Positions 38,053 through 53,816 of a DNA stretch of 64,000 nucleotides are shown here, piece after piece. The DNA lies in NCBI GenBank assembly GCA_030748215.1, contig JASMMK010000054.1:18118-82117 (forward strand), given 5' to 3'. Every line of letters begins with the position of its first letter. The first letter of the stretch is position 1. Below the pieces are notes generated by a model. The model searched no databases and was not told the origin of the DNA. It worked only from the letters and a program-made list of their open reading frames with translations. The DNA comes from Candidatus Scalindua sp. GTDB taxonomy: Bacteria > Planctomycetota > Brocadiia > Brocadiales > Scalinduaceae. The position numbers were made by a program, and so were the translations under genes.

Positions 38053-38178
38053 AGAGAAAGTTGTTTTAGGTTATTTGTTTTTTCACTATGGTTCCAATAC
38101 TACATTCCTTCAGAGTGAACAATAAAAGTTTTATTAAGTTCATGTATCACTTTTTGCCGTTTTAGCGGTCTGATCCGT

Positions 38179-38231
38179 GACATAATGTCCTTGGTATTGC
38201 TGAATTGCAATATGTATTGACATGTTGTCAA
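38179..38231. promoter_or_regulatory. Two-dyad regulatory element upstream of nirS
   Basis: A perfect dyad GACAT-A-ATGTC (38179-38189) is followed after 27 bp by a second perfect dyad TTGACA-TGT-TGTCAA (38217-38231). The same arrangement with identical spacing is at 46170-46222 upstream of the Rieske operon. The intervening bases are also similar (TGAATTG, AAT, TGTATTGACA). The second dyad can act as a -35 element: TTGACA is 18 bp from TATAAA at 38241-38246. Bound regulator unknown. Confidence 0.65.
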
Positions 38232-38701
38232 GGGTGGGGATATAAAGAGACTGCGAACGGTTTCCCACATAAAAAAATAAGGCCTGTAAGCATAAGTTGT
38301 CTAAGCACTTATTATAACCATATCGATTCTGTTTATCTTTCTTGCCTGTGGCACTTCTTTTGCTCGAACCTTTTGAGCATATCAACCAAAAAGATTATCA
38401 TTGATGGAAAAGATTTCGTTGAATAAAAAGTTTTTTGAAAATTAAACAAGTTATGGTTTTAGTGAAGTAATGGTATCAATTTACAAATTAAAACATAAAT
38501 GTTAATCTGTCTTCAAAAAATAATTTAACCTTAGATCTTATAAAATATTGTTGCTGATTATGTGCTTTACGGTTTGGCGGTATATCAAGGATCAAGGGGT
38601 ACCCCGAGTAGATGATAATGCGGCTGATTGCAGGTAAGAACACGGTTTGCCCAGAGAAGTTCGTCGAGCATGAAATCTATGTATTTGAATATTACCTTTG
38701 A

Positions 38702-38749
38702 AGTTTTGTACCATGCCCATGAAAGGAGGGGGTAGGGATGTACAAAACT
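38702..38749. promoter_or_regulatory. 10-bp inverted repeat in the nirS leader
   Basis: AGTTTTGTAC (38702-38711) is exactly complementary to GTACAAAACT (38740-38749) across 28 nt that include AAAGGAGGGGG. It ends 52 bp before the nirS start. It could be an operator, or an mRNA hairpin that hides a ribosome-binding-like sequence. There is no T-run, so simple termination is unlikely. Confidence 0.45.
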
Positions 38750-38801
38750 CTAGTGGAAAGGCGAGGCTTTTATCAAATCCAATTTCATGGAGGTTAAAGT
38801 T

Positions 38802-40466
38802 ATGCGAGAATGTTTAATGGCGTTTATGTTAGTCGTTGCTTTCATGGCTGGTAGTATACAGGCAATAGCAGAGGAAGCAACAGAGGAAGTAAAAGTGGAG
38901 TCTGAGGTTGCATCTGAGACGGAGATTGTCCTTACCCCTGAAGAGTTCGAAAAATGCAGGGTGATTTACTTCGACCGTTGCGCTGGCTGTCATGGAGTTC
39001 TGAGGAAAGGAGCTACCGGACCGGATCTGACTCCAGGCAAGACGAAAGCCAAGGGGACAAAAAAGCTCAGAGAATTTATATGGTTTGGAACCGGTGGAGG
39101 CATGCCTGGCTGGGGAAAAATGGGTACTATCACCGCAAAAGATACAGACCTGTTGGTAAAGTACATTCAGAACGATCCTCCTGTTCCTCCTCAATGGGAT
39201 ATGAAGAACGTTAAAGCCAGTTGGAAATTGTTGGTTCCGCCCGAAGAACGTCCCACTAAGCCGGAGCACGATCGTGACGTGGATAATATGTTTGCTGTGG
39301 TTCTGCGCGATGCCGGTCAGATAGCGATTATAGACGGTGACACGAAAGAAGTTGTAAGTACAGTTGATTCTGGTTATGCAGTACACATCACCAGGATGTC
39401 AATGTCAGGAAGGTATGTGTATTCCATAGGCAGGGATGGCAAGTGTACAGTGATAGACCTCTGGATGGCAAAGCCTGATACCGTGGCAGAGATCAGATGC
39501 TCTCTTGATGCGCGATCCGTTGATGTTAGCAAGTTCAAAGGTTTCGAAGACAAGTACGCCGTAGTAGGCGGCTACTGGCCGCCTCAGTTTGTGATACTTG
39601 ACGGCGCGACACTTGAGCCTATTAAAATCGTTAGTACTCTGAGCTACACTTATGATACGGAAGAGTTCCATCCGGAGCCTCGTGTAGCAAGTATTGTAGC
39701 TTCGCACTTCGCACCCGAATGGGTGTTGAACATTAAGGAAACAGGGCAGGTATGGCTCGTGGATTATACTGACCCAAATAGCCCTGGAATTAAAATGATT
39801 GAGGCCGAACGCTTTCTGCATGACGGAGGCTGGGATTCAACCAAGCGCTACTTCCTCGTGGCAGCGAATGCAAGGAACAAGATAGCGGTCATAGATGCCA
39901 AGGAAAAGAAACTTGTTGCCCTTATTGATACCGGTGGCATTAAACCGCATCCCGGAAGAGGGGCAAACTGGATTGATCCGGAGTTCGGTCCGGTCTGGGC
40001 TACTGGGCACATTGGCGATAGTGTGGTGTCAGTGATAGGAACTGATCCGGTAAACCATCCGGAGCATGCCTGGAAAGTGGTCAGGAAAATAAATTCGCTT
40101 AGTTCCGGCAACCTGTTTATTAAGACCCATCCGAATAGTAAATGGGTTTGGCTTGACACTCCCCTTAGCAAGAAAGCGAAATATAGGACAACTGTTGCTG
40201 TCTATGACAAGGCAAATATGGCAGCCGGGATATTCAAAGAGTTGAAAGTCGCTGATTATGGTAAGGCTGTACACATGGAGTACAATAAAGCAGGAGACGA
40301 AGTTTGGATAAGTATCTGGGGTAACCTGGGCGATGCCGAAAAGGGCCAGGCAGGTGAAATAGTAGTTTTCGATGACAAGACCCTTACAGAGAAAGCAAGG
40401 ATAAAAGGCCTTCTCACGCCTACGGGTAAGTTCAATGTGTACAACACAGTGCATGACTTGTATTAA
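38802..40466 (+). CDS. nirS: Cytochrome cd1 nitrite reductase
   Basis: NirS reduces nitrite to nitric oxide, the oxidant used in anammox hydrazine synthesis. A signal peptide (residues 1-25) leads to a cytochrome c domain with the heme c site CAGCHGVLRKG and TGPDL. The eight-bladed d1 propeller follows. GYAVHITRMSMSGRYVY carries the proximal histidine for heme d1, and FLHDGGWD and KPHPGRGANW carry the two distal catalytic histidines. All key residues are present. The frame opens at 38787, but ATG 38802 lies behind GGAGG and gives 554 residues, normal for the family. Three NirJ-like genes follow; a clear terminator separates them from nirS. Confidence 0.95.
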   Translation: MRECLMAFMLVVAFMAGSIQAIAEEATEEVKVESEVASETEIVLTPEEFEKCRVIYFDRCAGCHGVLRKGATGPDLTPGKTKAKGTKKLREFIWFGTGGGMPGWGKMGTITAKDTDLLVKYIQNDPPVPPQWDMKNVKASWKLLVPPEERPTKPEHDRDVDNMFAVVLRDAGQIAIIDGDTKEVVSTVDSGYAVHITRMSMSGRYVYSIGRDGKCTVIDLWMAKPDTVAEIRCSLDARSVDVSKFKGFEDKYAVVGGYWPPQFVILDGATLEPIKIVSTLSYTYDTEEFHPEPRVASIVASHFAPEWVLNIKETGQVWLVDYTDPNSPGIKMIEAERFLHDGGWDSTKRYFLVAANARNKIAVIDAKEKKLVALIDTGGIKPHPGRGANWIDPEFGPVWATGHIGDSVVSVIGTDPVNHPEHAWKVVRKINSLSSGNLFIKTHPNSKWVWLDTPLSKKAKYRTTVAVYDKANMAAGIFKELKVADYGKAVHMEYNKAGDEVWISIWGNLGDAEKGQAGEIVVFDDKTLTEKARIKGLLTPTGKFNVYNTVHDLY

Positions 40467-40501
40467 CAGATTGTTTGGGTTGTTTTAATAGTTTATAGGT
40501 G

Positions 40502-40543
40502 GGTACGGACAAATTGTATTTGTTCGTGCCTGTTTTATTTTTC
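40502..40543 (+). terminator. Rho-independent terminator after nirS
   Basis: GGTACGGACAAAT (40502-40514) pairs with ATTTGTTCGTGCC (40518-40530) through 13 positions with two G-T pairs and a TGT loop, then TGTTTTATTTTT follows. It ends the nirS message 109 bp after the stop and may leave the nirJ-like genes to read-through or to their own promoter. Confidence 0.8.
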
Positions 40544-40574
40544 CTTTCTTCTCGATTGAAAGACGCGGTGCCGA

Positions 40575-41786
40575 ATGATAAATTGCACAAAACTTTTACA
40601 GAGCACAGAAACGCTGAATGAGATAAAAAGGTACTCAGCAATCAAAAAGGAGACGCCAAAATGGATGCTTCGCTTCTCTAAGGCAACTTCTCCTATGGTG
40701 GTTTGGAATGTAACCAGAAAGTGCAATCTGAGCTGTGCCCACTGCTATATTAACGCGGTAGGACCGGAAGAAGCAGAGTCTGAAGAGGATATGGGTGATC
40801 TGACGACCAGAGAGGCGATGGATATGATCGATGATCTGGTGGCGATAAAAACGCCCATGCTGGTTTTCTCAGGCGGTGAGCCGTTGCTGCGAGAAGATAT
40901 ATATGAGCTTAATGTGTATGCCATGAAGCGCGGGCTCAGGACCATACTGTCGACCAACAGTACCCTTATAACCAGGGAAACGGCAAAAAAAATCAAGGAG
41001 GCCGGTTTCGCCTATGTAGGTGTCAGCCTTGATGGTACCGAAGAAGTTCACGATAGCTTCCGTGGGGCCAAAGGGGCCTTTGAGAAGTCGATTCAGGGGC
41101 TGAGGTATCTCATGGAGGCGGGGGTTAGGACAGGTGTGAGGTTTGCTATTACAAATCAAAACTACGATGAGCTGCCCAAGGTCCTGGAACTAACCAGGCG
41201 GGAGAAAATTCCAAGGTTCTCACTTTTTCAACTCGTATACGGTGGCAGAGGAAAGGAGATTATCGACTGGGATATCTTCAACGATCAGCGAAGAGAGGTG
41301 ATGGATTATGTAATAGAGGAGGCCAGAGTGAGCAACGGTATGAATATAGTTACGGCCGATAACTATGCCGATGGTATTTACCTTCTGCAAGACGTTGCAG
41401 AACACGACCCGGAGCGTGCTGCTGAGGTGGAAAAACTACTTGCCATGCAGAGTGGTTGTCCTGCAGGGGACTGTCTTGCGAACGTGGACAATCGAGGTGA
41501 CGTGCATCTCTGTCCTTATTGGCAGAGCCGGACACTAGGTAATATTCGGGAGAAGAAGTTAAGCGGTATCTGGTTTGACGAGGACAACGACATCCTAGTC
41601 AAAATGAGGGACAAAACACGCTATCTTAAGGATAAATGCGGGAGATGCAAGCTTAGTCACCTATGCATGGGATGCAGGGTAAGGGCAGAGGTTGCTTGTG
41701 GCGATCCTTTTGGAGAAGACCCGGCATGTTATCTGACAGAGGAGGAAATTAGCGGAGCAAAGGTTCGGTTACATGATAGAGGTTAG
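40575..41786 (+). CDS. NirJ-like radical SAM/SPASM protein, copy 1
   Basis: Radical SAM enzyme of 403 residues similar to NirJ and AhbD/AhbC. The cluster site is CNLSCAHCYIN (about residue 53), the SAM-binding motif FSGGEPLLRED, and the SPASM-like C-terminal region has CPAGDC, CGRC and LCMGC. NirJ removes propionate side chains during heme d1 assembly; Ahb proteins perform related steps in the siroheme route to heme. Placement after nirS favours heme d1 synthesis. It overlaps the next gene by 14 bp. The exact step is not decided from sequence alone. Confidence 0.85.
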   Translation: MINCTKLLQSTETLNEIKRYSAIKKETPKWMLRFSKATSPMVVWNVTRKCNLSCAHCYINAVGPEEAESEEDMGDLTTREAMDMIDDLVAIKTPMLVFSGGEPLLREDIYELNVYAMKRGLRTILSTNSTLITRETAKKIKEAGFAYVGVSLDGTEEVHDSFRGAKGAFEKSIQGLRYLMEAGVRTGVRFAITNQNYDELPKVLELTRREKIPRFSLFQLVYGGRGKEIIDWDIFNDQRREVMDYVIEEARVSNGMNIVTADNYADGIYLLQDVAEHDPERAAEVEKLLAMQSGCPAGDCLANVDNRGDVHLCPYWQSRTLGNIREKKLSGIWFDEDNDILVKMRDKTRYLKDKCGRCKLSHLCMGCRVRAEVACGDPFGEDPACYLTEEEISGAKVRLHDRG

Positions 41787-42936
41787 CAGGATACTGGTAT
41801 CGGAGAAATTTGAAAACAAAGCCCTTCGCCATAAGCGCAGTGGAGGCTCTGCGCCGGTTGTGGTATGGTGCACAACTAAGAGGTGCAACCTGGACTGCAT
41901 GCACTGCTATTCCGGTGGGAATACTGCTTCTGATGGTGAACTCTCGACCGATGAAGCAAAAAAAATGCTTGATGAACTTAAGGACTGTGGCTCTCCATTT
42001 ATGATACTCTCTGGTGGTGAGCCTTTTTTACGGACGGATGTTTTCGAGCTGGGGCGCTATGCCAGGGAGATAGGTTTAATGGTCATCGTCTCTTCCAACG
42101 GTACTACAGTCACTCCTGAGATAGCGGCAAAGGCCGCAGATGCCGGCTTCGGATACGTTGGTGTCAGCCTGGATGGCCTGGCCGAGACGAACAACTATTT
42201 CAGGGGCAGTGGAGATGCTTATAGCAATGCACTTCAGGGAATGCGGAACCTACGTGATGCCGGGATAAAGACAGGTCTGCGGTTTACTATGACCAGGCAC
42301 AACTGTCATGAACTTTCAGGGATTATGGATCTCCTGATCAAGGAAGGTTTTCATCGTCTCTGCGTTTATCATCTTGAATATGCTGGTCGTGGGAAGGAAC
42401 TTATGGATAACGACTTATCTCCAGATGAGCGGCGGAAAGCCGTGGATAGTCTGTTCAAAAAAACCGTTGAGATAAACCGTCACAATCACGATCTTGAAGT
42501 CCTCACCGTTGGAAACTACGCTGATGCCGCCTACATCTACATGAAAGTATTGAAGGAAAACCCGGAAAAAGCTGAGGCAGCATACGAACACTTTCTTCGT
42601 AACGGCGGTGAAGGCTGCGGTGAAAAGCTTGCTTACATAGACGAAGTGGGCAATGTTTACGCCAGTCAACACCTGAAGACTAAACTGGGTAACATCAGGG
42701 AGAGAAGCTTTGATGATATCTGGAATGGTGATAATGAATATCTGTGGGAACTCAGGAATAGGGAAGGGTTGCTCCGCGGGAAGTGTGCTAAATGCAGGTT
42801 TCTGGAAATTTGCAGGGGTGGTTCAAGGGCCAGAGCCCTAGCGGTTTATGATGACTTTGGTGCTCCTGACCCGAGCTGCTACTTAACCGAAGAGGAAATT
42901 CTAAAACCAATGCATGAGGAGGTACGGGATGATTAA
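41773..42936 (+). CDS. NirJ-like radical SAM/SPASM protein, copy 2
   Basis: Paralogue of copy 1, 387 residues. The radical SAM site is CNLDCMHCYSGG, followed by ILSGGEPFLRTD. The C-terminal region keeps CGEK, CAKC and ICRGGSRARA, but the CPAGD and CPYW cysteine positions of copies 1 and 3 are replaced by GEGCGEKLAY and YASQHL, so its auxiliary cluster must be ligated differently. That difference suggests a distinct reaction from its neighbours. It starts inside copy 1 and its stop is overlapped by copy 3, so the three are translationally coupled. Confidence 0.85.
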   Translation: MIEVSRILVSEKFENKALRHKRSGGSAPVVVWCTTKRCNLDCMHCYSGGNTASDGELSTDEAKKMLDELKDCGSPFMILSGGEPFLRTDVFELGRYAREIGLMVIVSSNGTTVTPEIAAKAADAGFGYVGVSLDGLAETNNYFRGSGDAYSNALQGMRNLRDAGIKTGLRFTMTRHNCHELSGIMDLLIKEGFHRLCVYHLEYAGRGKELMDNDLSPDERRKAVDSLFKKTVEINRHNHDLEVLTVGNYADAAYIYMKVLKENPEKAEAAYEHFLRNGGEGCGEKLAYIDEVGNVYASQHLKTKLGNIRERSFDDIWNGDNEYLWELRNREGLLRGKCAKCRFLEICRGGSRARALAVYDDFGAPDPSCYLTEEEILKPMHEEVRDD

Positions 42937-44080
42937 TTTCAGCCGGCTGCTCAAGGTAAGGGAGACGGCCAGGGATGTTAAAAAGCACCACAACAAGAGG
43001 GCTGATGAGGTGCCAAAACATCTCATCAGATATGCGAATGTCAAAGCCCCCATGGTGATATGGAATATCACCAGAAAGTGCAATTTCTCATGTGATATGT
43101 GCCACCTCGGCTCTGCTCTTGAGGCGGATAGTGATGAGTTGACTACGCAGGAAGCCTTAGAGTTTATTGACCATATGGCATCAATTAAGGTTCCTATGAT
43201 CTCTGTCTACGGAGGAGAGCCCTTAACCAGGGATGACTTCTTCACACTTGCAGGCCACGCCCACAATAGTGGACTTAGGATTATTCTTTCCAGTAACGCC
43301 GCCCTTATAACAGAGAAAACCGCCAGGGAAATTGCAGAGTCCGGTATCTCATATGTGGGAATTGATATGGACGGGTTTTCTCAGATAAGTGGACGCATGG
43401 ATGTTATTGCAGGGCTGGAAAAAGCTAAGCCTGCTATGGAGTACCTCAAGAATGCAGGAGTGGGATGTGGTGTGCGGATTACGATAGGAGACTTCAACCT
43501 GTCTCAGATGTCGCCCATTATCAAGGCTATCGAGAATACTGGACTTAAAAGATTTGCGGTTTGTCAGCACATAGACGGCAGTGACTGGAAGGCCGTAAAG
43601 AAAGAGAGACGGAAAATCATTGACTATCTCATTGATTATGCGGTGGAGAACCCCGAGATGGAGGTTGTTACCGAACAATTATATGATGACGGCGTTTACC
43701 TTCTGCAACGTGTTGCAGAGAGTGATCCGGGACTTGCTTCCGAGATGGAGAAGCTGCTTGCAAGACAGGGTGGTTGTCCGGCAGGGGACAGAATTGTCAA
43801 CGTGGACTACCTGGGCAATGTGCACCTATGCCCCTACTGGCAGGATCGGACAATTGGCAATATCAGGGAACAGAAGCTCAGTGATATATGTTTTGACGAG
43901 GAGAACGAGATCCTCGCAAAGATGAAGGATAAAACTCAGTATCTCAAGGGCAAGTGCGGGAGGTGTGTGCATAAACACCTTTGCAGGGGATGTGGGGCCA
44001 GGGCAGAGGAAATGTGCGGCGATCTCTTCGGGGCGGATCCAGCTTGCTATCTGACCGAGGAGGAAGTAGCAGCGGTATGA
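42929..44080 (+). CDS. NirJ-like radical SAM/SPASM protein, copy 3
   Basis: Third paralogue, 383 residues from ATG 42929, which follows GAGGAGG and overlaps the stop of copy 2 as ATGATTAA (the frame is open five codons further). The cluster site is CNFSCDMCHLG, then VYGGEPLTRDDF instead of the usual SGGEP. The C-terminal part has CPAGD, CPYWQD, CGRC and LCRGCGARA, closest to copy 1. Substitution of the serine before GGEP and of the His-Cys-Tyr after the cluster suggests a different substrate. A set of three would fit NirJ plus Ahb-like activities. Confidence 0.85.
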   Translation: MINFSRLLKVRETARDVKKHHNKRADEVPKHLIRYANVKAPMVIWNITRKCNFSCDMCHLGSALEADSDELTTQEALEFIDHMASIKVPMISVYGGEPLTRDDFFTLAGHAHNSGLRIILSSNAALITEKTAREIAESGISYVGIDMDGFSQISGRMDVIAGLEKAKPAMEYLKNAGVGCGVRITIGDFNLSQMSPIIKAIENTGLKRFAVCQHIDGSDWKAVKKERRKIIDYLIDYAVENPEMEVVTEQLYDDGVYLLQRVAESDPGLASEMEKLLARQGGCPAGDRIVNVDYLGNVHLCPYWQDRTIGNIREQKLSDICFDEENEILAKMKDKTQYLKGKCGRCVHKHLCRGCGARAEEMCGDLFGADPACYLTEEEVAAV

Positions 44081-44100
44081 CAGTTTTAGAATATCTACCT

Positions 44101-44580
44101 TTATCCTGAATCTGTAAAGTCTAATTTTGTTTCTGCGTTATTGTTAAAACTGTCATGGCATGCGTCACACGATCTTACCAGGTTGCCAAATTCAAGATTA
44201 GCTTTATCGGTGTTTTGATTATTACTGTACGAAATCAACTTATTTAAAGCGTTGTTAAAATTGCTGCTTAATTCCATAAACTCGTTTGAAACATCATTGT
44301 TCTCAATCATATATAATTCAACACAATTAAAGCCTATGTTCTCTTTGAGCTCTTCTGCCCACATAGCCATTTGAGCCCAGTCACTGTTCTCCACCGTCCT
44401 TGCCAGTCTTCTCATAGCCGTGGACGCTTTCTTCATGGCACCTGCCAGACTGTCATGATCTGATGTAGGTGCCTCTACATCCTCAACCCTTTCTATCTTT
44501 ACCTCCTCAGATTTCTTGCAGGAAGCAGTGACTATGGATATTCCGATGAATATGGCAAAAATTATGAGTGAATATTTCAT
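44101..44580 (-). CDS. Cytochrome c'/c556-like lipoprotein
   Basis: Protein of 159 residues. The signal peptide ends in a lipobox-like TASCKK near residue 20, and the C-terminal heme c site is VRSCDACHDSF. A four-helix arrangement with the CxxCH near the C terminus is the pattern of cytochromes c' and c556. Cytochromes c' bind nitric oxide or protect from it, which would fit a place next to nirS, but the assignment is by fold only. It overlaps the HEAT-repeat gene by four bases (ATGA) and lies tail to tail with the third NirJ-like gene. Confidence 0.8.
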   Translation of the reverse strand: MKYSLIIFAIFIGISIVTASCKKSEEVKIERVEDVEAPTSDHDSLAGAMKKASTAMRRLARTVENSDWAQMAMWAEELKENIGFNCVELYMIENNDVSNEFMELSSNFNNALNKLISYSNNQNTDKANLEFGNLVRSCDACHDSFNNNAETKLDFTDSG

Positions 44581-45449
44581 TTTCCCTCTATTTCTTCTAG
44601 TGCCTCTTCTGCCTTCCTCCAGACACCTCTATCATTATCTTCAAGTGTATCAATTAAGTGTTCAACTGCACGGGCATCCTTGATTTTTCCCAATGCCTCT
44701 GCCGCACACCACTGGACAGTGGTGTTGTCATCCTTCAGTGCATCAATTAATGGTTGAACTGCGCTGGCATCCCCTAGTTCTCCCAGTGCACCTGCTGCAT
44801 CTCGTCGGACGCTGCTTTCATTGTCCTTCAACGCGGCGATCAATGGCTTAACAGCACGTGCATCCTTTATTTTTCCCAGCGCCCTTGTCGCGGCGTCCCG
44901 GGTGCTGGTGTCGACATCATTCAAAGTTGCAATCAAGGGCTCAACAGCGCGTGCATCCTTTATCTTTCCCAGTGCTGCCGCCGCATACTGCCTGACTCTA
45001 CTGTCACTGTCTTTCAATGCAGAAATCAAGGATTCCACTGCTGGTGGCCCTATCTCTCCAAGCGCTCCTGCTGCACTCCACCGAACACTTTTATGATTAT
45101 CATTAAGGGCAATAATCAGGGGCTCTATTGAGCGTGCATCCTTTATCTCTCCCAGCGCCTCTGCTGCGCTTTGCCGGACAGTTCTGTTATTATCACTTAA
45201 TGCAGTGATCAGGGGTGCAACTGCGCGAATCTCTTTTCTCTCGCCCAGCTGCTCTGCCGCCATCTGCCGGACACTTCTGTCTTTATCCTTAAGCCATTGG
45301 ATTAACGTGGCCACTTTGTCAGTTGTGCCTTCATCTGTTCTGTCTTTGTTGGTTTTGCCGCATCCGACAAACGATAGACTAGAAACGATGAGTAGTGTAA
45401 CTATTGATGTCTTAACAAGGTTCAATACAGTGAGTTTACTATATAGCAT
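44577..45449 (-). CDS. HEAT-repeat (PBS-lyase type) lipoprotein
   Basis: Protein of 290 residues with a signal peptide and lipobox SFVGC, then about seven HEAT-type repeats of 31 residues of the form DNxxxVRxxAAEALGxIKDARAVxPLIxAL. Such repeats act as protein-binding solenoids. It is immediately upstream of the cytochrome c'-like lipoprotein in one operon and may hold it or another partner at the membrane. The DNA of the repeats is itself repetitive (GCATCCTTTATCTTTCCCAG variants). A chromophore-lyase role is not implied, since anammox bacteria lack phycobilisomes. Confidence 0.85.
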   Translation of the reverse strand: MLYSKLTVLNLVKTSIVTLLIVSSLSFVGCGKTNKDRTDEGTTDKVATLIQWLKDKDRSVRQMAAEQLGERKEIRAVAPLITALSDNNRTVRQSAAEALGEIKDARSIEPLIIALNDNHKSVRWSAAGALGEIGPPAVESLISALKDSDSRVRQYAAAALGKIKDARAVEPLIATLNDVDTSTRDAATRALGKIKDARAVKPLIAALKDNESSVRRDAAGALGELGDASAVQPLIDALKDDNTTVQWCAAEALGKIKDARAVEHLIDTLEDNDRGVWRKAEEALEEIEGK

Positions 45450-45582
45450 AATATCCTGGCATAAATAGATTTGCGAATTACGGTTTAGGCAAGTGAGCTA
45501 AGATTAACAGCGAATATCGAAGATTGGAGTACTTGTCACGTCGGCTGTGTCGAATCGTATATTGATATTCTTCATGAGGGAA

Positions 45583-45999
45583 TTATTCAACTGTAATAGT
45601 CCCTATCATCCCCACATCAACATGAGAATCACAGTAATAAGGAAATGTGCCGGTAGAGTGAAAAGTGTAGGTAAAGCTCCCCGAAGCCATTTTACCTGTT
45701 TTCCAGAAGCCATCAGGTACACCCTCTCTTCCGTCTTCCGTTTCAATTACTGGTCCACTTGCTACTTCGTGAGGTTTGCTGCCGGTCACGACCCATTTCA
45801 CACTATCACCTTGCTTAATCGTTAAGGAAGATGGAACAAACTCATAATCACCCGTCATCTCAACAATATGTGTTGTTGGCTCGGTGGCTGAGGCACTCTC
45901 TATGTCACTATTCGTTTGATCTGCAATACTACACCCATAAAAAGAGAATATTATTAGTAAAACAGCAGTATTTAGCACAATCACGGCACTTTTCATCAT
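45583..45999 (-). CDS. Cupredoxin (plastocyanin-like) lipoprotein
   Basis: Blue-copper electron carrier of 138 residues. A signal peptide with lipobox FYGC is followed by a short linker and the cupredoxin fold. The type 1 copper ligands are seen: His in GSKPHEV, Cys in FPYYCDSH, His in the same segment and Met in VGMIG. FVPSSLTIKQGDSVKWV is the first half. It could shuttle electrons from the Rieske/b complex or to NirS, whose natural donors include cupredoxins; the position between both clusters supports this. It is divergent from the Rieske operon. Confidence 0.9.
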   Translation of the reverse strand: MMKSAVIVLNTAVLLIIFSFYGCSIADQTNSDIESASATEPTTHIVEMTGDYEFVPSSLTIKQGDSVKWVVTGSKPHEVASGPVIETEDGREGVPDGFWKTGKMASGSFTYTFHSTGTFPYYCDSHVDVGMIGTITVE

Positions 46000-46738
46000 A
46001 TGCTCCTCTTTAATTTTAGTGTCAACATATAGGGATCATTACTGTGGAATTGTTGAAAAGCTTACAAAAAATTCTACAGCTTCACTGTTTTGATTACAAG
46101 TGTATTTTAGCTGCATTTAGCCTACGCTTCATCTCTTCAGAGCCAGCAAAACAAGTACTATCAGGTGCTGACATAATGTCCTCAATTTTGTTGAATTGTA
46201 ATGTGTATTGACAGCCTGTCACAATATCAGAAAGAGAATGCAGTTTTAAAAATTGTATGTTCAAGATGTGTTTGTATATGTGTATTAATAGTCAGCACTT
46301 ACGCTGCTGTGACTCTTTTGCGTTACTTCTGTTTTTTGTGGTATATTTTTTGCGATAAGTCTTAAACCTTCCTTAAATAAAGGGATATACTCAAAATAGA
46401 TTGTAAAGTTATAAAGTACAGCATTTGACAGGTTGTATTAGTTCTAAGATGTTATATACACAGTATTAACGAAGATGTATTCCGTGTTTTTGTGGTAGAT
46501 TACGGTAGCTTGAATGTGGATGGATGGTAAAGCCCATTGAGACTCTTTGTTCCGCTTCTCTGTGTTTGTTTAGGATAATCTTTGGGATAGCCCTGTTTCA
46601 ATCCAGGTGAAGAGTCTCGCCTTATAACCCACTAATCAGGCATAATAATATTATATTTACTGTCTTCTCAGGTTGCAGTTTCTCTTGGTAGCAAAATTCT
46701 TCAATTTTATATCCATAGTTTCTTGTTAAGTATTAAAT
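46000..46738. other. Intergenic region upstream of the Rieske/b operon
   Basis: Apart from the two-dyad element at 46170-46222, this 739-bp region has no convincing gene. It contains T-rich stretches near 46320-46360. Its length up to the Rieske start mirrors the long leader upstream of nirS. Confidence 0.5.
46170..46222. promoter_or_regulatory. Two-dyad regulatory element upstream of the Rieske/b operon
   Basis: GACAT-A-ATGTC (46170-46180) and TTGACA-GCC-TGTCAC (46208-46222) are separated by 27 bp, exactly as at 38179-38231 before nirS. Over the 55 aligned bases about four fifths are identical without gaps. The last base pair of the second dyad is lost here. No good -10 box follows at the usual distance, so the element is more likely an operator than a shared core promoter. 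Confidence 0.65.
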
Positions 46739-47299
46739 ATGACAGATAAGATTGACGTAAAATACTTAAAGACTATAAGGGAAAAATCTACAGCGGAAAT
46801 AAGTGGATCGTACGAACCTGGCACTCTGCTTGGCCACCCAAAGACGATTACGCGAAGATGTCTTTTCTGGGGAGCATGGCTGTCATTCTGGGGGCTTGTT
46901 TCTATGTGGAGTTTTTCAGTAGTTCGATACTTGATTCCCAGGGTATCGTATGAACCTTCAAATATTTTTAAAGCAGGGAAACCGGAAGATTATGCTTTGG
47001 GTTCTGTGACACTCATAGAAACTCGCAAGGTATGGATAATCAGAGAGGAAAGAGGCATATATGCACTTATAGCGGTATGTACGCACTTATCATGTCAGCC
47101 TCGATGGCTTGAGAAAGAGCAGATATTCAAATGCCCGTGTCATGGTGGGCAGTTTTACAAAAATGGAGTTAACTTTGCCGGTCCTCCACCAAAGCCTCTG
47201 GTGCGTGCGTTTGTTGAGGTAAGTGATGATGGTCGTTTGCTTGTAGACAAGGACAGGGTTGTAGATATTGATTACATACTGCCTGTCGAAACAGGGTAA
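46739..47299 (+). CDS. Rieske [2Fe-2S] protein of a cytochrome bc complex
   Basis: Iron-sulfur subunit of 186 residues. A membrane anchor (about 34-60, LFWGAWLSFWGLVSMW) precedes the Rieske fold with ligands in CTHLSC and CPCHGG. The motifs GQFYKNGVNFAGPPPKPL complete the cluster-binding loop. The protein takes electrons from quinol and hands them to a cytochrome. It heads an operon of cytochrome b, subunit IV, hexaheme c and octaheme proteins, as in anammox Rieske/b complexes. The ribosome-binding site before ATG 46739 is weak. Confidence 0.94.
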   Translation: MTDKIDVKYLKTIREKSTAEISGSYEPGTLLGHPKTITRRCLFWGAWLSFWGLVSMWSFSVVRYLIPRVSYEPSNIFKAGKPEDYALGSVTLIETRKVWIIREERGIYALIAVCTHLSCQPRWLEKEQIFKCPCHGGQFYKNGVNFAGPPPKPLVRAFVEVSDDGRLLVDKDRVVDIDYILPVETG

Positions 47300-47398
47300 T
47301 AGGTTTTGAGCATGTTTGGGTTTCGCAAAAAGTAATTTTGGATTACAACTTGTCTGGTAATAGCCGTAATGTCACTTTGATAAGGAGTTGATTCGATT

Positions 47399-48196
47399 AT
47401 GGAAGAAAAAAAGAAAAAAGATGGAGAAGGAAAAAATATAAAAGAATTAGCAAAGGGTACGCAGGTATGGAAGGCGATATTTGGAGACCTTTTGTTTGGT
47501 GAATTCAAACCTTTTTCTCCAATAAACAGCTTAATGCGTGGAATTGCCAAGATCATGCAATTGCACCCGTACAATATGAGTGTGGGCGGTAAGAGGATAA
47601 TAATGTACACATTTTGCCTGGGAGGCTTAAGTGTTTTTTTCTTCGCATTGCTTTCATGCACGGGAGCGTTCCTGATGATTTATTATAACCCTGATGTCAA
47701 CAAGGCTTATGCAAATGTTGAGGACTTTCGATACATTGTGCCATTTGGTATTTTAATAAGGAACATGCATAGGTGGACTGCGCACTTAATGGTAATGTTT
47801 GTATCTCTTCACATGTTACGTGTGTTTTTAACAGGAGCATACAAGCCTCCAAGGGAGTTAAACTGGATTGTAGGGGTAATTCTGCTGGTATTGACTATGC
47901 TTTCAAGTTTTACAGGGTATCTGCTTCCATGGGACCAGCTTGCTTACTGGGGAGTTACTATAGGGTGCAGCATGGGAGAGAATGCTCCGTTATTAGGGGC
48001 AAAGGGGCCGTTTGCATTGCTAGAGTCAGGAAAGGATGTGAACTCTATATTGGTGGGTGGTGCTGCAGTCGGGCAGCCCACTTTATTAAGATTTTATCTT
48101 TTGCATGCGATAGCGCTTCCCCTCGGGATTACCGGTTTAATGGGTTTTCATTTTTGGCGAATTCGTAGGGCAGGAGGGGTTTCAGGTCCGCTTTAA
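47399..48196 (+). CDS. Cytochrome b6-type subunit of the Rieske/b complex
   Basis: Membrane protein of 265 residues, b6-like length, with four transmembrane helices. The bis-histidine heme b ligands are RWTAHLMVMFVSLHMLRV (spacing 13 between histidines) and FYLLHAIALPLGITGLMGFH (spacing 14). SSFTGYLLPWDQLAYWG is the quinone-site region. On the CLGG landmark, the position of the b6 Cys that binds heme c-n appears to be Phe here, so that extra heme is probably absent. An AAGGAG site precedes ATG 47399. The N-terminal 30 residues are Lys-rich. Confidence 0.93.
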   Translation: MEEKKKKDGEGKNIKELAKGTQVWKAIFGDLLFGEFKPFSPINSLMRGIAKIMQLHPYNMSVGGKRIIMYTFCLGGLSVFFFALLSCTGAFLMIYYNPDVNKAYANVEDFRYIVPFGILIRNMHRWTAHLMVMFVSLHMLRVFLTGAYKPPRELNWIVGVILLVLTMLSSFTGYLLPWDQLAYWGVTIGCSMGENAPLLGAKGPFALLESGKDVNSILVGGAAVGQPTLLRFYLLHAIALPLGITGLMGFHFWRIRRAGGVSGPL

Positions 48197-48248
48197 TTCT
48201 AAGTGTAGAGACGGTGCGTAACCTAAATTATTTCAGGAAAAACAAGAT

Positions 48249-49088
48249 ATGGTTGAAGAACAAGACGAGTCAAAAGAGAAGGATGAAGTAATAGTCCGTA
48301 TGTCAAGGAGGGAGTGGGAATACGTCAAGGATGTTCACATAACTTCTAATTATAAAGAAGGATTCGAAACGTTAACTCCGAAAGAGCAGGACTACACAGT
48401 CAAACACCTCCGTGACTCTGTTGGGATAGAGTTTATTGCAGGACTGTTATTCACCTTTATAATTATGGTTTGGTCTCTTTATATGGATGCTCCGCTGAAG
48501 GAGTTGGCAAATCCATCTGATACTCCGCTTGATGAGAGGGCACCGTGGTATTTTATCGGACTCCAGGAGCTGCTCATATATTTTGATCCATGGCTGGCAG
48601 GGGTTGTAATCCCTTCTATATTGCTCGTAGGCCTAATAGTCCTGCCTTTTATCGATCCAAATAAAGAGTCCGGTGTTGGCAGGTACTCCTTTAGGGTAAG
48701 GCCGATTGCGGTGTCAGCATTTTGCTTTGGTTATGCAATGTGGTATATCCTGATAGTTATTGGACAGTTTTTCAGGGGTCCGGGCAGGGTGTTCTACTGG
48801 CCATGGGAAGATAAAACAGTTGTAAAGGTTGTGCCGCCGGCCGAGATGGTGAATTTTCATATTGCCGGCGGGTTTGCTTTCTTCATTCTGTTTTTTGGGG
48901 CCTGCGTAGTTGTTCCAAAGCTGATTTTTAAAAATCTTTATAAATCCTTAGGTACTGTAAGATATTATATTTTTGTATGTTTAATGGCAATAATGTTGTT
49001 AATTCCTATTAAGATTTTCTTAAGATATGTATTTGATGTTAAATATATTCTATCTCTTCAAATATTTAATACAGCTCTAAACTTTTAA
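48249..49088 (+). CDS. Cytochrome b subunit IV-type protein
   Basis: Protein of 279 residues that corresponds to the C-terminal half of cytochrome b. About six hydrophobic helices are visible, more than the three of plant-type subunit IV. The Qo-site motif that is PEWY in most complexes reads APWYFIGLQELL, so the catalytic glutamate is missing. An acidic N-terminal tail (VEEQDESKEKDEVIV) precedes the membrane part. It is 52 bp after the b6-type gene and three bases before the hexaheme gene. Split cytochrome b with a modified Qo motif is also seen in other menaquinone users. Confidence 0.88.
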   Translation: MVEEQDESKEKDEVIVRMSRREWEYVKDVHITSNYKEGFETLTPKEQDYTVKHLRDSVGIEFIAGLLFTFIIMVWSLYMDAPLKELANPSDTPLDERAPWYFIGLQELLIYFDPWLAGVVIPSILLVGLIVLPFIDPNKESGVGRYSFRVRPIAVSAFCFGYAMWYILIVIGQFFRGPGRVFYWPWEDKTVVKVVPPAEMVNFHIAGGFAFFILFFGACVVVPKLIFKNLYKSLGTVRYYIFVCLMAIMLLIPIKIFLRYVFDVKYILSLQIFNTALNF

Positions 49089-49091
49089 ATA

Positions 49092-50102
49092 ATGGAACAT
49101 TACGTCAAATTAATATGGCTACTCGTAATATCTATCTTGATGTTGGGTGTTTCGGTGGTGTGGTTTTATAAAGAGTATAATCCTGAGTGGAAACAACACC
49201 AAAAGGCTGTTATCAAGAAAAAGGTTGCTAAGGAGGAAGAAGACTACGAATTTTGGTCAAACCCGGAATGGGGCGATCCGAAAAAGGCAAAGGAGTTGGA
49301 GGATAAGATTAAGGGCTTGAAGGGCACAAAGTTTAAGATAAAGCAGATATTGCTCAAAGGTGAGGGGCTTTGGAGTAATCAGGAGAATGGGCATCGGGTA
49401 GAAAGATGTATGACATGCCATATTGATGAAGATGAATTACATGAATTACATCCGGAAGGCCTTCCGATTGCTTATGATGTTTATGGGTGCACTGTATGTC
49501 ATGGCGGTAATGGCAGAGCCCTTGAATCTGAGCGTGCGCATGAAGGGTCTCATGCAGACAGGAAGGCGATGGAGGGCCCACGTACCGCATCTGCTGCTGA
49601 ATTTATAAAAATGTGGAAGCGGCTTCATGAATTGAATCCTGAAAGTGAAGACAGTCTCAGGGTGGAGAGCTTCTATGGCCCGACAGGTGAGTATCAAATT
49701 TATGTTGGTAGGAGAAAATGTATAAAGTGCCACAAGAAAATGCATCCGGAACATGTCGAAAGGTGGAGCAGGACAAAGTTTAATACATTCGAGAGAATAC
49801 AAAAAGAGCCTGACTATAGAAGCGGTAATTTAGATTATAAAAAGCAATGTTATAAATGTCATACCACAGGCTACAGGGAGGACAAAAAGACTTACTCTGA
49901 GCCGGGTGTTGGTTGCGAAGGGTGTCACGGTCCTGGTGAGGTGTACAGCCACCTTATGGCAGGTGAGCACAAAGGTGATGTAGAAGAGGGTCAAAAACTG
50001 GCCAAAATCTCTTTTGACTTTAAAATCTGTGGTAATTGCCATATTCCAAAAAGACATGAAATGCGTAAGGAATATTTTAAAGGTGTTGCACGCGTAAAAT
50101 AA
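49092..50102 (+). CDS. Membrane-anchored hexaheme c-type cytochrome
   Basis: Protein of 336 residues with one N-terminal membrane helix (about residues 5-27) and six CxxCH heme c sites: CMTCH, CTVCH, CIKCH, CYKCH, CEGCH and CGNCH. A charged linker (about 30-90) separates anchor and hemes. The pattern resembles cytochrome c554-like and Rieske/b-associated multiheme subunits. It would take electrons from the Rieske protein and hand them to the octaheme partner. It begins three bases after subunit IV, so it is an integral part of the operon. Confidence 0.92.
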
Positions 50103-50289
50103 CTATACATATGGGCAGAGAAGGGCGTTGTGTGTGTAAGCTCATATATCAAGAAAACATTTCTTTATGCGGTATATTGCAGTTGACATATATATCTTCT
50201 GTTGTACTATAAGGTTATGATTTGTAGACAATGTGTTCATTTACTCGGACTTTGTGTATTTATAACTTCAGAGTGAGAGGGGTGGCTAT

Positions 50290-51927
50290 ATGAAGCATTT
50301 GAGAATTGGCGTCATATTATTAATTTGCGTGGCTTTTCTGGTATTTAGCGACGGCAAAATCTTTGCGCAGGGATCTGTTAATCCATCTCCGGAAAGATTG
50401 GTTTTCCCAACTGAGAAAGGGCAAAAAGGTTTTGAGGAGTGGGTTGGTCTGGAGAAGGGTAGTGGCCCCTGGGCTGACTACTATAAACCAACACCGCTTC
50501 ATATGTACTGGAGTCCAAAGAATCATTATATAAGGCCGGATCTAAGTGCTTTTAAAGACCTTTTTGATGAATATGCTTCAGGGGATTGTATGGGCTGCCA
50601 TGAGGAAGTTACACCAGGAATCGTTCGATCATGGAAGTCGTCGACTCACGCAAATCCCAGGAAGAATCCAATGTTTGCTGAGAAAACTCGGGCGATTGAA
50701 GAGGCATCTGGCATAAAGATAGAGCAGATAACATGTAATTTCTGTCATGGTGAAAGTCATGAGGAACTGTTTTTGCCTGTAGCTGATGACGTATGCAAAA
50801 AGTGTCACAGGCAGCAGGTAGAGGAGTTTGCCTCAGAAATTGAAGATGGAAGACCAAGCCACAGGGCATCGTGGATTTCGAATGTTGTTGTACCGTGGTA
50901 CATTGAAGGCTTCAGGAGGGGAGAGGGTTATTCATTCATAGGATGTGATCAGTGTCATCCTGCAATGGAGAGATGCGACCCATGCCATACGCGACATAAG
51001 TTTAGTGCTGAAGAGGCAAGGAAGCCTGAGGCATGTTATTCGTGCCACATGGGCGCAGACCATCCCGATGCTGAAACCTACAAAGAATCAAAAATGGGTG
51101 TTATTTATGCTATGGAAGGTGACACGTGGGCATTTGACAAAGGATTGAATGATCTGGCTCTTGGTGGGCCTGAAATGCGTGCTCCTACATGCCAGATCTG
51201 TCATATGTACAACAACACATCAGGAAAGTGGGGACATAATGTAACATCCAAAGGTCGCTGGCGCATGGGTACCTTCCCGCCTGTTCAGGTAGAGTACAAG
51301 TCCAGTATGAAGGATTACCCTTATGGGATCACTATTCCTCCATTGGACAAGAAATTGGATATTTATGATGGTGCAAACAAGAGGAAGCTTGAAAGATGGC
51401 TGGAGGTTTGCAGCAACTGTCATAGCGGGCGGTTTTCAAGATTGTGGTTTGAGGCCCTTGATGAATACATGTTTGCTGCATATCGGAAGCGTGATGAAGC
51501 TCAGTTGCTCGTGGAAGAGTGCTTTGAGAAGGGTTGGATTGATGTAAATGCCAGGGCTCCATATCCGATGGGTGATGTACTTGCCGACAAGCTGGGAGTT
51601 AAACTGCTTGGTGAAGGAGTCTTTAAGGCGCTTAAGATGTCTAAGGGCAAGATTCCAGTGGTAGGTCCTATCCTGGGTGTTTATGCTAATTTCAGGCATG
51701 ATGATGGTAACCCTAGTCAAATTGAAACTGAATATGGCAACATGTGGTTCTGGTATGCGCTCAAAGGTTACAAAGGTGTGGCGCATGGCCAGCAGGACTA
51801 CGCCTGGTGGTGGGGTTGGGCACCAATGGTAAATCAACTGTCACGCATCAAATCGCAGCATGATATGTTGGAAAGAGTCTACAATATTGAAACAAAGCTT
51901 GGAATAGGTCTCGGAGGTAGCAAGTAG
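50290..51927 (+). CDS. Octaheme hydroxylamine-oxidoreductase-like protein
   Basis: Exported protein of 545 residues (signal peptide about 1-27) with eight CxxCH sites: CMGCH, CNFCH, CKKCH, CDQCH, CDPCH, CYSCH, CQICH and CSNCH. Length and spacing fit the HAO family. The C-terminal part has WFWYALKGYKGVAHG and WWWGWAPMVNQ, the region where the HAO tyrosine that cross-links to the active heme sits; an alignment is needed to say whether that tyrosine is kept. Kuenenia carries an HAO-like protein in the matching operon. Association with the Rieske/b complex suggests a role as electron outlet or nitrogen-oxide reductase. Confidence 0.92.
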   Translation: MKHLRIGVILLICVAFLVFSDGKIFAQGSVNPSPERLVFPTEKGQKGFEEWVGLEKGSGPWADYYKPTPLHMYWSPKNHYIRPDLSAFKDLFDEYASGDCMGCHEEVTPGIVRSWKSSTHANPRKNPMFAEKTRAIEEASGIKIEQITCNFCHGESHEELFLPVADDVCKKCHRQQVEEFASEIEDGRPSHRASWISNVVVPWYIEGFRRGEGYSFIGCDQCHPAMERCDPCHTRHKFSAEEARKPEACYSCHMGADHPDAETYKESKMGVIYAMEGDTWAFDKGLNDLALGGPEMRAPTCQICHMYNNTSGKWGHNVTSKGRWRMGTFPPVQVEYKSSMKDYPYGITIPPLDKKLDIYDGANKRKLERWLEVCSNCHSGRFSRLWFEALDEYMFAAYRKRDEAQLLVEECFEKGWIDVNARAPYPMGDVLADKLGVKLLGEGVFKALKMSKGKIPVVGPILGVYANFRHDDGNPSQIETEYGNMWFWYALKGYKGVAHGQQDYAWWWGWAPMVNQLSRIKSQHDMLERVYNIETKLGIGLGGSK

Positions 51928-52238
51928 CTGTAGACTGTGCAGGGTGTATCAAAATGAATGTAACTGATATTTGAATATACATAAGCATGGAAATTAATTT
52001 CCATAATTTTTAGAATAGATTTCCGTGGATTTGGGGATCAGTAGAGATTTACGTTTAACCCGCTTAGTGCCGACTGAACGGCATGTAATTTGCTAAATGA
52101 CGTAAAATATGGCTTTTTATTGGCTTTTTCAAAAAAAGCTTGCAATTAACACCACTATATGTATTAATATACAGCCGTTATGTAGTTTGCAAGAGAGTAG
52201 GAAATGCTTTTTTAATTTTTTTTGGGGGGGAATTTAGT

Positions 52239-53816
52239 ATGATGAGAATTAAGAATTATTTTATAATTTTTGCATCTGTATTCGCGATCACAGCAGGATG
52301 TGCGATTGTTGGAATGCAGGATGTGAAGGCGCAGGACAGTATGTCTGACCTCATCAAGAGGATAGAGGCACTGGAATCAAGACCTGCTGGTGGCGGCAAC
52401 GTTACTGCGGGAAAGATCAGGGGTTTGAAGATCGGCTTGAATTTGAGGCATAGATATGAGATCAGGAGTCAGGATTTTAACGCTAGCGGCGGTACTTACA
52501 CACAGGCGGCTGACGGGACACGTTCACTCGCTAGTCTCTCTACTAGTGCTCATAGGCAAAGGAAGCCGACACAAGACTTTACGCTACAGAGGATGAGGCT
52601 CTCTTTCGATATGGACATCAATAAAAATGTAATGGCTCGCGTAATGCTTCAGGATGTACGTACGTTTGGTGATTCTGGAATAACCGGTAATAACTCACAA
52701 ACAGATGTTCAGGAAGGGTATGTTCAGTTGAGAAACCTCGGGGACGTAAACCCGCTGCTCAGCAATGTTCAGGTTCGTATTGGAAGATGGCAGCAGGCGT
52801 ATGGTAACCAAAGGGTAATTGGTAGCCTTGGATGGGCTAACCAGAGCAGGTCTTATGACGGTGCGAAGGTAATGTATAAGAAGGGTAATTTTAACGTAGA
52901 TGTCTTTGCGTTTCAGATCGACGAAACTGCAACTGGTGGTGTAAGTGGTAGTGGTGGTGACTTTGGTGTAAATGACAATAGAGACTCAGTGCTTTATGGT
53001 TTCTACGGACAGTACAAGTTTGGAGGTGCCCTGAAGGGTAACGTTATTGAGCCATATTTGGTAGCTAAGCATGAGTCAACAGACGAAGACGTTACTAATG
53101 CAACAAGAACGCTAGAGAGTGAGACTAGATATACATGGGGTTTAAGGGCACATGGTAAGGGATTGTTTGGTGGTGGTCTTGATTACACTATTGAACCAAA
53201 TTTGCAGACTGGACAATCTCGGTATACACCATCTAGTAAATCTGCATCAGTGAACTCAAAAGATAGCATTAATGCATGGGCAATTCATGCGGAAGCTGGA
53301 TATACTTTCAAGAATCTACCTTGGACACCAAGGATAGGTTATGCATACTCGTTTGCATCAGGTGATGATAACTTTGATGAGGGAAGCCAGAAGACTTATA
53401 AGCAAGTTAGTCCGACACAGCATGCTCATAATGGATATATGGATGTTACCTCATGGCAGAACATAATAGATCATCAGATCCACTTTAATGTGAAACCATC
53501 AAAGAAACTTGTGATAGACGTAAAGGCACACTTCTATGAACTGGATGAAGAAGCAGATAACTGGTGGCATATTGGTGGTACAGCAGTAAATAGGGCAGGT
53601 GCTGACACTTTTGTAAATAACTCTGGTGTCACTGAGGATGTAGATGATGAACTGGGGCAGGAAATCAATGTTACGCTTAAGTACAAGATGTTTGAGAACT
53701 TTGGTGTAGTAGCGGGTTACGGTCATTTCTTCGCAGGTGACTTTATTGAAGATACTAGTGCAGGAGTTGACAGAGGTGTAGACTGGTTCTATCTGCAGAC
53801 AACAGTGAGCTTCTAA
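52239..53816 (+). CDS. Outer-membrane porin
   Basis: Beta-barrel protein of about 525 residues with a signal peptide (residues 1-27, cleavage near VKAQDS). A short coiled-coil (MSDLIKRIEALES) precedes repeated aromatic strands such as GLKIGLNLRHRYEIR, VRIGRWQQAYGNQR and the terminal WFYLQTTVSF. A final aromatic residue is typical of barrel assembly signals. Of two ATGs at 52239 and 52242, either may be used, since seven Gs lie 8 bp upstream. It is preceded by an unusual T8G7 tract. It may form the outer membrane pore for nitrite, ammonium or cation passage. Confidence 0.85.
   Translation: MMRIKNYFIIFASVFAITAGCAIVGMQDVKAQDSMSDLIKRIEALESRPAGGGNVTAGKIRGLKIGLNLRHRYEIRSQDFNASGGTYTQAADGTRSLASLSTSAHRQRKPTQDFTLQRMRLSFDMDINKNVMARVMLQDVRTFGDSGITGNNSQTDVQEGYVQLRNLGDVNPLLSNVQVRIGRWQQAYGNQRVIGSLGWANQSRSYDGAKVMYKKGNFNVDVFAFQIDETATGGVSGSGGDFGVNDNRDSVLYGFYGQYKFGGALKGNVIEPYLVAKHESTDEDVTNATRTLESETRYTWGLRAHGKGLFGGGLDYTIEPNLQTGQSRYTPSSKSASVNSKDSINAWAIHAEAGYTFKNLPWTPRIGYAYSFASGDDNFDEGSQKTYKQVSPTQHAHNGYMDVTSWQNIIDHQIHFNVKPSKKLVIDVKAHFYELDEEADNWWHIGGTAVNRAGADTFVNNSGVTEDVDDELGQEINVTLKYKMFENFGVVAGYGHFFAGDFIEDTSAGVDRGVDWFYLQTTVSF

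Follow-up and report, generated by a model that had tools for sequence, protein, structure and literature searches.

In two-component regulation of the NtrC type, a response regulator with REC, AAA+ and HTH_8 domains acts from paired upstream dyads on a sigma-54 promoter, for which we used the consensus TGGCAC-N5-TTGCW with its GG-N10-GC core. NorR, also a sigma-54 activator, controls nitrogen-oxide metabolism (detoxification of nitric oxide), and the core of its site, GTCA-N3-TGAC, has its arms reversed relative to the TGACA-N3-TGTCA motif described here. Sigma-54-dependent regulators adjoin nxrAB in Nitrospira (PMC6606698), and a regulon of a CRP/FNR homolog comprising carbon and stress genes has been predicted from a metagenome-assembled genome (MAG) of Brocadia (PMC8510549). 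We analyzed a 64,000-nucleotide stretch of Candidatus Scalindua sp. (the window, part of contig C54 of genome G000) in which a pair of TGACA-N3-TGTCA sites precedes both nirS and a Rieske/cytochrome b operon. This pair is very probably, on sequence evidence, an enhancer for an NtrC-type regulator, which we call F6, that would activate sigma-54 RNA polymerase on nirS, Rieske/cytochrome b, nxr and a predicted nitrite transporter.

In the window the pattern GACATAATGTC-N27-TTGACANNNTGTCA has exactly two matches, 38179-38230 and 46170-46221, both on the + strand and both where a sequence-only reading of this DNA had placed them; no further match in the window appears with up to 3 mismatches, and 100 shuffles gave zero matches. 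The whole 2.44-Mb genome likewise contains the pattern exactly twice and its reversed form not at all. The two elements are identical at 43 of 55 ungapped bases, in keeping with the four-fifths identity claimed earlier, and they lie 557 bp from the start codon of nirS (38787) and 518 bp from that of the Rieske gene (46739), which agrees with the 0.5 to 0.6 kb that had been given. The earlier reading described two different palindromes, but GACATAATGTC and TTGACANNNTGTCA are one motif, TGACA-N3-TGTCA, occurring twice with centers 40 bp apart. At nirS the predicted activator sites are TGACA-TAA-TGTC (distal, 38178..38189) and TTGACA-TGT-TGTCAA (proximal, 38217..38231), and at the Rieske operon a distal site (46169..46180) is followed by the proximal TGACA-GCC-TGTCA (46209..46221), all on the + strand.

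About 120 bp past each of these elements lies a −24/−12 motif that the sequence-only reading had overlooked. The nirS motif, TGGCACTTCTTTTGCT (38349..38364, +), agrees fully with TGGCAC-N5-TTGCW, as no other place in the window does; with one mismatch allowed, the window has 3 matches against 2.02 expected by chance. The Rieske motif, TGGTATATTTTTTGCG (46339..46354, +), is weaker, agreeing at 8 of 11 consensus positions, and similar motifs stand at the equivalent place in L093, L139, L097, L105 and L142. With the C of GC taken as −12, transcription is predicted to start at about 38374 and 46365, and the distal and proximal sites are then centered at about −190 and −150 in both promoters. The predicted leaders of 413 nt for nirS (38374..38786, +) and 374 nt for the Rieske operon would explain the distance between element and operon. 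The putative nirS leader is alignable over its full length in 5 genomes; a structured RNA there was considered and rejected, the fold being unsupported (covariation term +2.92 on 5 sequences) and Rfam at gathering thresholds giving nothing in this leader. We likewise rejected the idea that the divergent cupredoxin gene has a sigma-54 motif of its own on the minus strand, since the only match sits inside the gene itself, 233 bp away from the element.

We surveyed 59 genomes of the order, 17 from the window's own family (f1, Scalindua-type) and 42 from other families. When up to 3 mismatches were allowed, the original pattern matched in 14 of the 59, 13 of them in the family, and the 14th (G030) has a single asymmetric match. 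Allowing a free gap of 14 to 44 bp between cores, we recovered 63 distinct pairs from the 17 family genomes, 16 of which carry at least one; the spacing is 40 bp (27 pairs), 41 bp (14) or 42 bp (22) and no other, and a reversed-pattern control gave 1 match across all 17 genomes. Because the search fixed the eight core bases of each site, these do not vary among the 63 elements; the unsearched flanks show a preference of their own, the proximal site tending to AAnTGACAnnnTGTCAAA. The elements are intergenic, 3 of the 63 lying inside short open reading frames (ORFs) of 70, 81 and 104 residues that we take as spurious, and on this ground a reading of the 42-bp-spaced pairs as coding repeats was rejected. 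A profile of the 63 elements finds five places in the window's genome at E 3.5e-8 or better, with the next at 0.02, and under strict filters it finds no clear element in the 42 genomes of other families (best E 0.0027). Left out of the 63 were L003 (in G030; 3 mismatches, no symmetry), weaker matches such as G005:C40:3921 (E 1.4e-6) and G014:C180:8415, and an imperfect pair with a sigma-54 motif behind F6 in G014 (C140).

The promoter motif accompanies the pair throughout this set. At all 63 elements GG-N10-GC in a TGGCAC-N5-TTGC-like context lies 101 to 135 bp off the pair on one side, by which we oriented each element, and at none does it lie on the other side; the same position is occupied in 0.9% of 3150 shuffled flanks, and in ten further 35-bp windows of that flank the motif occurs at 0 to 2 of about 60 elements. 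Tandem dyads at a constrained spacing of 40 to 42 bp are present in 63 of 63, as in an upstream activating sequence of the sigma-54 type, whose sites lie about 100 to 200 bp upstream of the promoter. The rpoN gene for sigma-54 has one match in the window's genome and was found in 16 of the 17 family genomes. The statement in the sequence-only reading that the element resembles no known family site is not supported, since the architecture is that of a sigma-54 activator enhancer, with its −24/−12 motif at a fixed distance.

Clustering of the genes downstream of the 63 elements gave target classes dominated by nitrite and respiratory functions: nxr (12), Rieske/cytochrome b with an NAD(P)-oxidoreductase-type gene (8), an FNT transporter with an HPP protein (7), Rieske/cytochrome b of the window's kind (6), nirS (5), YceI (5), genes behind an RND pump (5), a multiheme cytochrome (4) and SLAC1/TDT (2), with 9 others or contig edges that have no identified class. 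The window's genome has five sites, before nirS, the Rieske operon, nxr, a locus behind an RND pump and a presumed FNT gene, the last having upstream a CBS protein that matches the neighbor seen at FNT loci. Its nxr operon encodes NxrC-like and NxrB-like proteins, a 197-residue protein, a chaperone of the nitrate-reductase-delta type, a 357-codon frame and a 1161-residue molybdopterin protein that we take as NxrA; nitrite as the substrate of FNT is a prediction from sequence. Neither hydrazine synthase nor hydrazine dehydrogenase is among the identified targets, 9 of the 63 sites being without a class. It had been anticipated that matches would concentrate before hydrazine, nitrite or nitrogen-oxide genes, and the nitrite and respiratory part of this holds while the hydrazine part does not. 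The placement at random or coding positions that had been feared was not seen, most matches being intergenic and before nitrite or respiratory operons, and a regulatory-type element common to nirS and the Rieske operon is borne out.

In the window itself, nirS encodes a cytochrome cd1 nitrite reductase (38787..40466, +; Pfam Cytochrom_D1, E 2.9e-135) and is followed by three radical-SAM/SPASM genes (40575..44080, +) with a putative role in heme d1 synthesis. The second target, at 46739..53816 on the + strand, comprises by Pfam a Rieske protein, cytochrome b, a cytochrome b C-terminal part, a multiheme cytochrome, an octaheme HAO-like cytochrome and a porin-like protein, which presumably form one operon; for the octaheme protein the hydrazine dehydrogenase model gives 138 bits, its cut-off being 900. 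An EF-G gene precedes the nirS element, and the divergent cupredoxin gene precedes the Rieske element. Elsewhere, a YceI-family gene lies downstream of the element in five family genomes (L104:4318-4875 and relatives), and small proteins of 139 and 98 residues are encoded behind an RND pump gene after the fifth element of the window's genome (L131:2801-3780).

The nxr loci point to a candidate regulator. Directly upstream of the nxr element, 10 of the 12 loci encode the activator F6 and a kinase, F8 (partial in L098), and an 11th retains the C-terminal part of F6 at a contig edge. F6 combines REC (98.6 bits), sigma-54 AAA+ (237.9 bits) with the GAFTGA motif, and the Fis-type helix-turn-helix (HTH) domain HTH_8 (49.4 bits) by Pfam, the composition of an NtrC-family response regulator. 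F8 is a membrane histidine kinase with PAS, HisKA and HATPase domains and a PilS-like membrane domain that only just passes its threshold (27.7 bits, cut-off 27). F6 was found in 15 of the 17 family genomes (the window's own, encoded at L130:4081-5589 on the minus strand, and others at 77 to 92% identity), not counting the partial copy at the contig edge, and Candidatus Scalindua japonica is among the F6 matches listed (the best 120 of 1843). Beyond the family, a relative of 60% identity occurs in G018 (f3), behind which a modified operator was looked for and none was found; the rest of the order reaches at most 48% among the best matches listed.

The predicted F6 system resembles NtrC-type two-component systems in the domain order of the regulator, in the paired dyads at about −150 and −190 and in the GG-N10-GC motif, but differs in the TGACA-N3-TGTCA sites at 40 to 42 bp, in the many nitrite and respiratory targets and in that F6 scores below the NCBIfam cut-offs for NtrC (420/558.6), AtoC (482/714), ZraR (410/760) and NtrX (375/600). 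Unlike NorR, F6 carries a receiver domain and gives no match to GAF, and it reaches 309 of the 476 bits required by the NorR model. The Nitrospira case is similar in that a sigma-54 activator gene adjoins nitrite oxidoreductase genes, but the portions of PMC6606698 available to us describe no operator or regulon. The Brocadia regulon is likewise predicted for an anammox bacterium but is of the CRP/FNR type, and 'nxr' and 'hydrazine' have 0 occurrences in the text of PMC8510549. Our literature search, whose coverage left subscription papers mostly outside, found no sigma-54 regulon in anammox bacteria; the architecture is already known, but in the literature searched there is no apparent description of this operator, of the regulator or of the targets.

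The pair also occurs outside the order. Screening about 85,000 species for the pair with a sigma-54 motif, and sorting the matches by title and inspection, yielded 70 stretches: 53 of Scalindua type, 1 labelled Neomarinimicrobiota and 16 unrelated, the last from Oligoflexia, Bacteriovoracaceae, Bdellovibrionales, Myxococcales, Latescibacterota, Poribacteria and others. In four of the 16 (L155, L188, L190, L191) the operator falls inside ORFs of a simple caller, and these were kept in the counts. Among the loci looked at, the targets are different ones: Pfam identifies an operon for type II secretion in L161, on which ground an assignment of the Bdellovibrionota-type operon to type IV pili was rejected, and an Hsp70 gene in L183, while an Hsp70 gene in L213 and UspA-like genes in L166 were recognized by eye. 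The stretch labelled Candidatus Neomarinimicrobiota (L202) carries a pair like that of Scalindua genome G010 and is probably mis-binned.

The recognition helix of the activator follows the operator into these genomes. In F6 it reads RTIYRK, and RTIYR[KR] occurs in an activator of 13 of the 16 unrelated operator genomes (10 of 13 by HTH search, and G068, G073 and G074); in the genome of L161 itself the helix reads RTIDRR. We could parse the helix at 26 of 30 family loci (one being F6 itself), at 14 of 14 related-family loci and in 28 activators of operator genomes. RTIYR[KR] is in none of the 25 non-F6 activators of the family and in none of the 14 best F6-like activators of related families (0 of 39 in total), nor was it found in two operator-free genomes (G030, G037) searched alike for HTH domains. 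Four RTIYR activators of operator genomes are 38 to 41% identical to F6 in global alignment, and on the myxobacterial contig L191 the stop codon of an F6-like gene (54%) forms the first bases of the operator's first site. The Bacteriovoracaceae MAG L161 and its look-alikes share with the Scalindua loci the paired sites, the sigma-54 motif and mostly an RTIYR[KR] activator, but not the targets. The pair and RTIYR[KR] together may be a transferable operator and helix code for uncharacterized activators in other phyla. The sequence-only reading had proposed a dedicated anammox regulon, which does not agree with these look-alikes, where the same operator and a like helix stand before other genes, nor with the order, where the element was found in one family only (16 of 17 genomes, with none clear in the 42 others).

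The strongest competitor to F6 is a sigma-54 enhancer bound by some other activator or activators, which we consider unlikely. The window's genome has 17 sigma-54 activator domain matches to choose from, F6 adjoins the element only at nxr, and G003 has operators with no F6 detected. Against this, 10 of 12 nxr loci have F6 next to the operator, helix and operator are associated across phyla, and in the window's genome itself only F6 (E 1e-34) of three HTH matches has RTIYRK, the next (8e-7) reading RTLYRK.

Several further points weigh against the assignment to F6 or against the target list. At the 12th nxr locus (G016) F6 is encoded elsewhere, not beside nxr; G015 (L232) has the F8-F6 pair with neither an operator nor a detectable NxrB; and in G003, which is 82% complete, three operators are present and F6 was not found. 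Three of the 16 unrelated genomes lack the exact helix (variants in G060 and G071, no match in G070), and the helix control is not fully matched, its HTH search having covered two operator-free genomes only. By full-length similarity the helix is in 7 of 28 activators from operator genomes, as would be expected if one activator per operator genome carries it. The genomes are MAG assemblies, and the Pfam names of the target classes rest on one representative each. The names NxrB and NxrC come from DMSO-reductase-II family matches below the NCBIfam cut-off, so that NxrA, NxrB and NxrC are assigned by family and gene order; FNT is also below its cut-offs (NirC 187/293, fnt 200/232), and the FNT target in the window's genome is deduced from the upstream CBS neighbor, its contig ending about 408 bases past the element. 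Finally, the YceI and RND-pump-linked targets have no evident tie to nitrite, and the regulon may be broader.

For F6 as the activator, the pair, its spacing, the one-sided −24/−12 motif, the gene order, the nxr-linked kinase-regulator pair and the co-occurrence of the helix are read from sequence, and we hypothesize the following course from them. The adjacent membrane kinase F8 would phosphorylate F6, which would bind the pair as two dimers on nearly the same face of the DNA and assemble its ATPase ring on the paired sites. The roughly 100 bp between would loop out, allowing F6 to contact the closed sigma-54 RNA polymerase, and the uptake, reduction and oxidation of nitrite would be set together with quinol oxidation. 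Since nitrite is common to nirS, nxr and the predicted FNT, our guess is that the signal is nitrite, a nitrogen oxide or the quinone redox state. A regulator coupling nitrite reduction to quinol oxidation had been proposed before; that interpretation is partly supported by the present comparison, the shared regulatory-type element being the part that stands. We lean, with moderate confidence, toward a wider view in which one nxr-adjacent kinase-regulator pair controls the entire nitrite branch point in Scalinduaceae (uptake, nirS, nxr and Rieske/cytochrome b) with hydrazine genes excluded, and which would be the first defined regulon of anammox core catabolism, redeploying an operator-helix code used elsewhere for secretion and stress genes. 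Now that operator and promoter motif are specified along with a candidate regulator and a list of targets, the division of nitrite among reduction, oxidation and uptake in Scalindua becomes directly testable.

Other kinds of control are much less probable. A repressor, a one-component sensor like FNR/CRP, NnrR or NorR, or a sigma-70 promoter using TTGACA as its −35 box could be suspected from the TTGACA within the proximal site, but only 38 of 63 proximal sites have the first T of that hexamer, and the −24/−12 motif keeps its distance in 63 of 63. The 13-bp TGACA-N3-TGTCA also differs from FNR, NnrR and NorR sites, and its shape together with the sigma-54 motif led us to reject a one-component site of these types; we regard this group of explanations as very improbable. 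Least credible of all is a dispersed repeat or mobile element as the source of the copies, a possibility raised by the sequence-only reading itself and suggested by the 43/55 identity and by nirS and Rieske spacers alike enough for an old duplication of the promoter region, but opposed by the mere five genomic places above the gap in E values, by identity that falls to 0 to 2 of 10 immediately outside either border with neither flanking similarity nor further copies, and by nxr elements that join unrelated spacers to the same sites and promoter motif.

The spacers themselves carry a separate signal. The 27-bp spacer sequence varies among target classes, a second correction to the sequence-only reading, and on this basis a third binding site within it was rejected. 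Spacers of nirS and Rieske elements are on average 63% identical between genomes (31 pairs) and 60% within a genome (4 pairs), and either kind compared with nxr spacers gives 36 to 37%. This likeness agrees better with a duplication in which both kinds derive from a single ancestral enhancer than with an additional binding site. A contig from the Mohns Ridge (VRUK01000110.1, Planctomycetota bacterium MohnsGC08_bin89; L153 and L181) carries a nirS gene and a second element, and the spacers of its two elements are 93% identical, possibly through a recent conversion or duplication of the enhancer.

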